55,216 nt of DNA. Origin: Prochlorococcus sp. AG-402-N17. GTDB lineage: Bacteria > Cyanobacteriota > Cyanobacteriia > PCC-6307 > Cyanobiaceae. Positions 46,852 to 48,346 of the stretch are shown here, in pieces. The notes beneath the pieces are model-generated. The model was not told the origin of the DNA and searched no databases. It saw only the letters and a list, made by a program, of their open reading frames with translations. Within the stretch, counting starts at the first letter, position 1. The number at the start of each line of letters is the position of its first letter. A program made the position numbers and the translations under genes. The stretch is taken from positions 1 through 55,216 of the forward strand of contig QCIV01000007.1 of assembly GCA_003216455.1 (NCBI GenBank). The letters run 5' to 3'.

Positions 46852-46871
46852 AATCCAAAAAAAATAGTGTC

Positions 46872-46880
46872 TGTGGAAAT
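46872..46880 (-). promoter_or_regulatory. DnaA-box-like 9-mer
   Basis: Read on the minus strand ATTTCCACA; one mismatch to TTTTCCACA, the form I recall for cyanobacteria, and two to E. coli TTATCCACA. Its orientation is opposite to the other three. Confidence 0.5.
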
Positions 46881-46897
46881 CAAATAAAAACGAACGT

Positions 46898-46983
46898 CAT
46901 TTGTTGAAAAATAAATAATAATTAATCCTATTTGTTGAATAAAATTAAATTTTTCGAATAAAGAAAAAACTATTCAACAAATG
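46898..46983. repeat. TTTGTTGAA repeat family with an 11-bp inverted pair
   Basis: CATTTGTTGAA occurs at 46898-46908, TATTTGTTGAATA at 46929-46941, and the reverse complement TATTCAACAAATG at 46971-46983. The last two share an 11-bp perfect inverted repeat (TTTGTTGAATA / TATTCAACAAA) separated by 29 nt. The motif is not a DnaA box. It may be a binding site for a protein acting at the origin. Confidence 0.7.
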
Positions 46984-46990
46984 CAAAATT

Positions 46991-46999
46991 TTTTTCACA
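46991..46999 (+). promoter_or_regulatory. Weak DnaA-box-like 9-mer
   Basis: TTTTTCACA, one mismatch to TTTTCCACA but at an important central C, so affinity may be low. Confidence 0.35.
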
Positions 47000-47044
47000 T
47001 GTTTTTTTATACGTAAACTGTGTTAACAAGGTATTTAATTTCAA

Positions 47045-47062
47045 AATTCCACAGTTTCCACA
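47045..47062 (+). promoter_or_regulatory. Two abutting DnaA-box-like 9-mers
   Basis: AATTCCACA (47045-47053) is directly followed by GTTTCCACA (47054-47062), both in the same orientation. They differ from TTTTCCACA by two and one bases. Tandem boxes pointing to a triplet repeat and an AT tract are the usual loading platform for DnaA. Confidence 0.6.
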
Positions 47063-47066
47063 AAAA

Positions 47067-47078
47067 CTACTACTACTA
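47067..47078 (+). repeat. CTA x4 triplet array, candidate DnaA-trio
   Basis: CTACTACTACTA starts 4 nt after the tandem DnaA-like boxes; the complementary strand reads TAG repeats. This matches the DnaA-trio element (3'-GAT-5' repeats) described in B. subtilis, which guides DnaA onto single-stranded DNA during unwinding. Confidence 0.55.
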
Positions 47079-47150
47079 AACTTTTAATTTTATTATTTAT
47101 TTTTATATTAGAAAAAAGTAAAAAATGAATTTATTGAATTTAATTTACGA
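47079..47150. other. AT-rich tract, candidate DNA unwinding element
   Basis: Almost only A and T (stretches such as TTTTAATTTTATTATTTATT) directly after the triplet array. Position and composition fit the region first melted at an origin. Confidence 0.5.
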
Positions 47151-47188
47151 AAAAAGTATATTGTATTTGTAAAAAGTTCCAAATTCCG

Positions 47189-48346
47189 ATGGAAATTATT
47201 TGTAATCAAAATGAATTAAATAATGCTATACAACTAGTGAATAAAGCAGTTGCTTCAAGACCAACGCATCCAATTCTCGCAAATATACTTTTAACAGCTG
47301 ATGAAGGAACTAATAAAATTAGTATGACAGGATTTGACCTTAATTTAGGAATTCAAACTTCTTTTGATGGAACTGTTAAAAATAGTGGAGCTATTACTAT
47401 ACCTTCAAAACTTTTATCCGAAATAGTAAACAAACTACCTAATGAAACTCCTGTCTCTTTAAAAGTTGAAGAGAATTTAGATAACATTTTAATAAAAAGT
47501 GACAGAGGTTCTTTTAACCTTAAAGGAATCCCCTCTGATGAATATCCTAATTTGCCATTTGTTGAAAGTGGTACTTCTTTAAATATTGATCCTAGTTCTT
47601 TTTTAAAGGCTTTAAAATCTACTATTTTTGCTAGTAGTAATGATGATTCAAAACAATTACTCACAGGTGTCAATTTCACATTCAAACCAAATTATTTAGA
47701 GTCCGCTTCAACAGATGGTCATAGATTAGCTGTTGCTTTAATTGGCAATGAGGAATATATCAAAAATAAAGAAAACTTATCTGCAAATGATGGTGATTTG
47801 TCAGTTACTATTCCAACAAGATCATTAAGAGAAATTGAAAAACTCGTATCTTTGAGAAGCTCAGAAAATTCAATAAAGCTTTTTTATGACAAAGGTCAAG
47901 TAGTATTTATTTCTTCTGATCAAATAATTACTACAAGAACCCTAGAGGGTACTTATCCTAATTATTCACAATTAATTCCTGATTCTTTTTCTAAAATTCT
48001 GATTTTTAATACAAAAAAATTAATTGATGCATTAGAAAGAATTGCTGTCTTGGCTGATCAACAAAGTAGTGTTGTAAAGATCAAATTAGATAATACAGAT
48101 TTAGCTTCTATTAGTGCAGATGCCCAAGATATTGGAAATGCAAATGAATCAATACCTGTTTCTTATTCAGGAGAAAATTTTGATATTGCATTTAATGTTA
48201 GATATCTGTTAGAAGGTTTAAAAGTTATTTCTTCTGAAAACGTACTTTTAAAGTGTAATATTGCCACTACTCCAGCTGTTTTTGTGCCAGAAGATAATCT
48301 CAATTCTTTTACTTATCTAGTTATGCCAGTGCAGGTTCGTTCTTAA
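47189..48346 (+). CDS. dnaN: DNA polymerase III sliding clamp (beta subunit)
   Basis: 385-residue processivity factor forming a ring dimer on DNA. It starts MEIICNQNELNNAIQLVNKAV, with SRPTHPILANILL near 23-35 (family P-x-LP-x-L like), SLKGIPSDEYPNLP-type loop (NLKGIPSDEYPNLP) near 109-122, and ends FTYLVMPVQVR, matching the C-terminal 'YVVMPMRL' that contacts the clamp loader. Three clamp domains of about 125 residues fit the length. No clear Shine-Dalgarno precedes the ATG. It is the first gene right of the presumed origin, transcribed with the fork. Confidence 0.98.
   Translation: MEIICNQNELNNAIQLVNKAVASRPTHPILANILLTADEGTNKISMTGFDLNLGIQTSFDGTVKNSGAITIPSKLLSEIVNKLPNETPVSLKVEENLDNILIKSDRGSFNLKGIPSDEYPNLPFVESGTSLNIDPSSFLKALKSTIFASSNDDSKQLLTGVNFTFKPNYLESASTDGHRLAVALIGNEEYIKNKENLSANDGDLSVTIPTRSLREIEKLVSLRSSENSIKLFYDKGQVVFISSDQIITTRTLEGTYPNYSQLIPDSFSKILIFNTKKLIDALERIAVLADQQSSVVKIKLDNTDLASISADAQDIGNANESIPVSYSGENFDIAFNVRYLLEGLKVISSENVLLKCNIATTPAVFVPEDNLNSFTYLVMPVQVRS

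Follow-up and report, generated by a model that had tools for sequence, protein, structure and literature searches.

A candidate DnaA-trio unwinding module before dnaN in Prochlorococcus, and the middle trio base of its GC-rich relatives

The region 47045-47148 of the window (the whole 55,216-nucleotide stretch of Prochlorococcus sp. AG-402-N17 DNA analysed here) is most likely the spot where Prochlorococcus opens its chromosome for copying. This region very probably serves as the basal unwinding system (BUS) of the chromosome origin oriC, a module at which DnaA unwinds the DNA. The direct observations are its sequence and geometry, its conservation, its nearness to the GC-skew minimum of a relative, and the pocket residues of DnaA. 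Few photosynthetic organisms are as abundant as Prochlorococcus. The gap that holds its origin was placed previously (PMC2836286), and an opening element within the gap is a small addition; the value of the element lies in what the surrounding comparison reveals on how a trio is read. The aligned relatives amount to a natural mutagenesis experiment, which suggests the letters of the signal that DnaA can read.

Results

The candidate oriC is the intergenic gap between thrC and dnaN (46852-47188, without strand), which is 337 bp long and 80% A/T. The flanking genes are named by NCBIfam, thrC as threonine synthase and dnaN (47189-48346, + strand) as the DNA polymerase III beta clamp. Inside the gap two predicted DnaA boxes abut each other on the + strand, box 1 (AATTCCACA) at 47045-47053 and box 2 (GTTTCCACA) at 47054-47062, both recovered by direct reading, by alignment and by the module scan. 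They are co-oriented, and box 1 has two mismatches to TTTTCCACA and box 2 has one. A 4-nt spacer AAAA follows (47063-47066, + strand), and then four putative DnaA-trios, CTACTACTACTA (47067-47078, + strand), which read CTA four times on the + strand and 3'-GAT-5' four times on the - strand. The A/T-rich DNA at 47079-47133 is a candidate duplex unwinding element, again without strand, picked out by its rank in nearest-neighbour stability; the 70 bp past the triplets (47079-47148) are 91% A/T, compared with 80% for the whole gap. The original prediction had described two abutting DnaA-box-like 9-mers, a 4-nt spacer, four CTA triplets and an A/T tract, and direct reading of 47045-47148 bore out all of these parts. 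It had also proposed a box and trio layout like that of B. subtilis, aimed at dnaN, and this is supported by the order of box, CTA and A/T being common to the relatives.

A published search rule for BUS elements asks for a box with at most two mismatches, at most four in the weaker box of the pair, and at least three consecutive 3'-NAN-5' trios within 16 bp of a box (PMC8287927). The pair in the window agrees with the first part, having 2 and 1 mismatches, and the four 3'-GAT-5' trios, 4 nt after the box, agree with the second. Unstable A/T-rich DNA is present past the trios as well: the 60-bp segment starting at 47079 falls in the least stable 0.149% of such segments (0.15% when rounded), and the lowest near it, at 47084, in the least stable 0.009%. 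Few places in the window are less stable than the A/T tract, but it does not hold the very lowest rank, and from 47134 on its distal part overlaps a promoter-like site.

How often would such an arrangement be expected by chance? The 55-kb window has a single fourfold CTA, and 100 shuffles produced none. When the gap was shuffled 2000 times with dinucleotides preserved, the module score was never reached, and CTA four times in a row never appeared on either strand. Taken alone, the 8-mer TTYCCACA shows no enrichment in the window, with 2 copies where 4.49 were expected. With no signal in this count, individual boxes were set aside, and the case is built on how the parts are arranged and how well that arrangement is conserved.

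Is the arrangement kept in close relatives? A scan of genome contigs yielded 196 DnaN relatives, and the best 80 of the 196 were retained. The label HL-type refers to record titles that read Prochlorococcus or Synechococcaceae; MIT 9314 and MIT 9201, which we take to be high-light strains, are among the HL set. The module is seen in 79 of these best 80 of 196, and the exception (L048) has only 43 bp upstream. The consensus used to score upstream sequences joins two TTTTCCACA boxes to CTACTACTA across about 4 nt, and each upstream was shuffled 5 times. All 84 HL gaps scored, namely the window, the 79 loci and 4 further genomes, lie at 5 mismatch points or fewer, and the minimum among 420 shuffles is 8. 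In an alignment of 78 HL rows the boxes and triplets are near invariant and much of the remaining gap drifts. L048, L064 and L081 were left out of this alignment; the last two were included in the module scoring, and L081 carries the fourfold CTA. An alignment of the thrC-dnaN gap was the check proposed for the prediction, and its outcome is that the order of box, CTA and A/T is maintained in relatives, with variable flanks.

The CTA triplets are likewise kept in close strains, with four NTA triplets in 83/83 distinct HL gaps and a fifth in 1 of them. Within triplets 1-3 of these gaps, 7 of 249 cells differ at position 1, and none of the 249 do at position 2 or at position 3; the fourth triplet shows 7 departures, all at position 1. 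At the level of the genus, the exact pattern TTYCCACANNNNCTACTACTA has a single match in 36 of 61 genomes and two matches in none (the distance from match to dnaN was not checked individually), and the reversed control of the pattern matches 0/61. Of the genomes, 21 reach 90% completeness with contamination of no more than 5%; the exact TTYCCACANNNNCTACTACTA pattern is present in 15 of these, and in the remaining 6 a variant module lies 143-161 bp ahead of dnaN.

The module extends to the family and to part of the class. In the family, 57 of 68 upstreams score at 7 points or fewer, with a minimum of 8 in 340 shuffles, and the scores of the remaining 11 overlap those of the shuffles. Of 44 upstreams from the wider class, 7 score at 5 or fewer (220 shuffles, minimum 8), and three of these 7 have two perfect boxes together with CTACTACTA; at the other 37 of the 44 loci the module was not found in the region upstream of dnaN. 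A tighter cut to the last 300 bp counts 6 of 53 class loci. By these counts, the module does not mark dnaN in all cyanobacteria. At three loci of the wider class (L223, L225 and L226, with scores of 0, 0 and 5) the module starts 325-580 bp before dnaN, so the distance between the two is not fixed.

A GC-rich spacer between boxes and trios is usual in B. subtilis, and the original prediction held that it is absent here and replaced by AAAA. This is true for the window but not for the wider family: the GC fraction of the spacer is 0.19 in HL gaps, 0.66 in the low-GC family, 0.86 in the high-GC family and 0.83 in 6 class rows. Because the wider family has a GC-rich spacer, its loss in HL Prochlorococcus is probably a derived state. 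Such a spacer does not figure in the BUS search rule in those parts of PMC8287927 that give the rule. A length of 4 fits best in 83/83 distinct HL gaps, 38/39 low-GC family rows and 51/51 high-GC family rows (1 of 52, L211, was dropped), under a scan that permits 3-5 nt and prefers 4. Since the scan also counts C as the match at the first position of triplets 1-3, position 1 in the family cannot be judged from it, and spacer length only partly.

What becomes of the trios in GC-rich genomes? Counted over triplets 1-3 of 62 GC-rich upstreams of the family, the upper strand has T as its middle base in 123 cells, G in 60, A in 2 and C in 1, that is A 123, C 60, T 2 and G 1 on the trio strand, where a filter demanding CT at the first triplet fixed the middle base of that triplet. 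All three middle bases are A in 6 of the 62 and A or C in 59. In the low-GC family (38 rows) the middle base is A in all 114 cells. A second GC-rich set, fetched after the pattern had been noticed and without that filter, gave upper-strand T 89, G 81, A 1 and C 0 in 57 of 61 rows, with all-A trios in 1/57 and A-or-C trios in 56/57; the three genera it comes from (g5, g6 and g30) were already in the first set, so it brings new genomes, not new lineages. A middle G or T on the trio strand appears in 4 of 357 cells of both sets, and an example module from a GC-rich relative is CTACGACTACGG. The published rule wants at least three NAN trios (PMC8287927), and 7 of 119 GC-rich modules fit it while 112 break it. 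The GC-rich loci come from among L198-L218, L239-L279, L310-L321 and L354-L418, and their genomes belong to the window's family, presumably to picocyanobacteria.

Several rows were set aside. In the first set 3 of 103 family rows were dropped: L101, whose module scored 6 in the first scan, L206, a doubtful case with a score of 10, and L211, which had none. Before these drops the high-GC counts in 51 rows were T 99, G 48, A 4 and C 2. For the second set, 7 of 68 loci were skipped (4 duplicates and 3 without a dnaN start) and 4 of 61 rows were unused (L379, L383, L395 and L416); in L383 the spacer of the module is 3 nt long, and the module of L395 lies outside the scored register. One row that was used, L399, resembles a mis-hit, and without it the counts are T 88, G 79 and A 1 in 56 rows. 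A counterexample outside both sets is G309 (L325; CTACTACCACTA), of the same genus as the window and with a DnaN 82% identical, in which the third triplet is CCA and puts a middle G on the trio strand.

Neutral GC drift was considered as the source of the T-to-G changes and rejected by a control at four-fold degenerate sites. A DnaN tree was used that covers 131 genomes, made up of 100 family rows, the window and 30 HL rows picked at random. Parsimony on it puts the changes at the middle positions of the four triplets at T-to-G 18.5, G-to-T 16.5, T-to-C 1.0 and T-to-A 0.7. On the same tree, 72 four-fold degenerate dnaN columns give T-to-G a share of 0.38 of T-to-G plus T-to-C, and columns preceded by C give 0.37; at the four-fold columns GC-rich taxa favour C (2348) over G (1343). 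Testing 19 in 20 against 0.38 with a binomial distribution yields p = 1.5e-7; since parsimony counts are estimates, this value is a guide only. Because the changes at the middle run against the neutral four-fold trend, selection apparently retains a middle trio base that carries an amino group. At the third position, the upper strand leans to A or G, with A-to-G 23.1, A-to-T 4.7 and no A-to-C, and the corresponding control counts are 93.0, 238.8 and 74.4. On the trio strand this is a preference for T or C in the third base that exceeds the control trend, though the B. subtilis structure leaves this base uncaptured (PMC10721633).

The protein side of this signal is known from B. subtilis. Cryo-EM of DnaA on the BUS has the first two bases of a trio captured between neighbouring DnaA molecules, with N187, R202 and E228 contacting bases and I190 and I193 flanking the third base (PMC10721633). 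When the DnaA of the window's genome is aligned to the 8btg chain, N201, I204, I207, R216 and E242 correspond to B. subtilis N187, I190, I193, R202 and E228. The five capture residues are identical in 26/26 related DnaAs, 24 from the family and 2 from the class. In B. subtilis, cytosine largely replaces the middle adenine in vitro and in vivo, and guanine or thymine does not (PMC10721633); the natural A/C pattern agrees with the amino-group rule from that mutagenesis. It is likely, then, that the trios of the family obey an amino-base rule: GC pressure would swap the middle base between A and C (3'-G[A/C][T/C]-5') and hardly ever bring in G or T, because DnaA would read the amino group through its equivalent of Asn187. 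Most GC-rich relatives would in that case have working trios that the NAN rule misses.

Where does the origin lie on the chromosome? Prochlorococcus origins were placed between threonine synthase and dnaN by GC skew, gene neighbours and nearby DnaA boxes (PMC2836286), and a cyanobacterial oriC beside dnaN with TTTTCCACA boxes was already established (PMC6323995, PMC4674748). In a complete relative of 1,641,879 bp, whose DnaN is 95% identical, dnaN is at 170 and the cumulative GC skew reaches its lowest value near 1,635,000, no more than about 7 kb from dnaN around the circular chromosome. This minimum, a weaker stand-in for marker frequency, comes from one relative and from 40 stretches of 20 kb (800 kb, about half of its bases), with the first 400 kb complete and the rest sampled and interpolated. 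The dnaA gene is on another contig in the window's genome and 516 kb from dnaN in the complete relative.

The gap holds other elements. Near its thrC end is a reverse DnaA box, ATTTCCACA (46872-46880, - strand), and TGTGGAA is found at the same end in 79/80 HL gaps. Three exact repeats follow: TTTGTTGAA, which is TTCAACAAA on the - strand, at 46900-46908 (- strand), a second copy of TTTGTTGAA at 46931-46939 (- strand), and a third copy, read as TTCAACAAA, at 46973-46981 (+ strand), inverted relative to the other two; all three are seen in the alignment. Since TTCAACA occupies the position of a BUS box in L002, L039 and L068, the TTCAACAAA repeats may be weak DnaA boxes. At the dnaN end there is a sigma-70-like promoter candidate for dnaN, TTGAAT-17-TATATT (47134-47162, + strand; 9/12 matches), within a strongly conserved block. 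Promoter-like sites are not commoner in the scan than in shuffles (2 found, mean 3.4 expected), and the site is named because it is conserved in the HL alignment, not because of the scan alone. The last 60 bp before dnaN, 47129-47188, are seemingly better kept among HL strains than the A/T tract, and the promoter-like site accounts for part of this conservation.

Discussion

Since some cyanobacteria replicate without DnaA (PMC7198777), conservation alone is no proof of DnaA dependence. Other readings of the block were weighed. One is that it serves mainly in dnaN regulation, with box-bound DnaA controlling the promoter at 47134-47162 and the triplets as part of an operator. DnaA has a transcriptional role too (PMC7198777), and the promoter-like site begins 56 bp past the triplets, inside the strongly conserved block. 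Nevertheless, this reading is unlikely: a geometry of 18+4+3n and a tolerance with the period of a triplet fit the trio pocket and are not predicted by an operator, the GC-skew minimum of the complete relative falls here, and in L223, L225 and L226 the module is hundreds of base pairs away from dnaN. Origin and dnaN-regulatory functions may coexist. Still less probable is that the origin opens elsewhere in the gap, for example near the TTCAACAAA repeats at 46900-46981, with the trio block as an auxiliary. These repeats are the sole cluster of three within 200 bp in the 800 kb sampled from one relative, but all three exact copies are kept in only 33/80 HL gaps, against 84/84 for the trio module, and the very unstable DNA directly adjoins the trios. 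Finally, slippage can create short triplet runs and the fourfold CTA is only 12 bp, yet its origin by chance or as a slippage microsatellite beside ordinary DnaA boxes is scarcely credible and was rejected on the 0/2000 gap shuffles and the constant triplet number in HL gaps (four in 83/83, a fifth in only 1), with its single occurrence in 800 kb of the relative and the sharing of the module by the family and part of the class also speaking against it.

For the unwinding module, the way it works can be proposed from studies in B. subtilis and S. elongatus, which are the basis here for binding, filament growth, strand choice, opening and helicase loading. DnaA would occupy the two co-oriented boxes at 47045-47062, and a DnaA filament would grow over the 4-nt spacer onto the lower strand. 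It would take one 3'-GAT-5' trio per step, capturing the first two bases of each, and the adjacent A/T-rich DNA would open towards dnaN and allow helicase loading.

There is a wider use for the trios of GC-rich relatives. A BUS was predicted in 1755/2070 species, and Pelliciari and colleagues, who reported 15% of origins without trios, suspected deviant motifs lacking the middle adenine (PMC8287927). The A/C form of the trio is a concrete candidate for part of these origins, and the comparison suggests a way to mend the origin-search rule. No statement of natural A/C trios was found in the part of the DnaA-trio literature covered, mostly titles and the openings of abstracts. The original prediction knew of no description of trios in this lineage. 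For cyanobacteria this does not stand, boxes and trios of S. elongatus having been tested (PMC8287927); for Prochlorococcus it does, in that the part of the literature covered by our search contained no paper joining 'DnaA-trio' with 'Prochlorococcus'.

How does the module compare with known systems? Records of cyanobacterial oriC in DoriC and Ori-Finder usually adjoin dnaN and contain TTTTCCACA boxes and trio elements (PMC6323995, PMC10225481). The BUS of Synechococcus elongatus belongs to the same phylum as the window, and its origin is near dnaN (PMC7198777); DnaA of this species separates its own BUS in vitro, and boxes and trios are both required (PMC8287927). The BUS of B. subtilis, made of boxes 6/7 and DnaA-trios (PMC6669920, PMC10721633), resembles the window in having two co-oriented boxes, a short spacer and repeated 3'-GAT-5' on one strand. 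Unlike in B. subtilis, dnaA of Prochlorococcus is elsewhere in the chromosome and the spacer of HL Prochlorococcus is A-rich, and there are four trios in the window compared with six engaged in the B. subtilis structure (PMC10721633). Residues N187, I190, I193, R202 and E228 of DnaA are conserved between the two.
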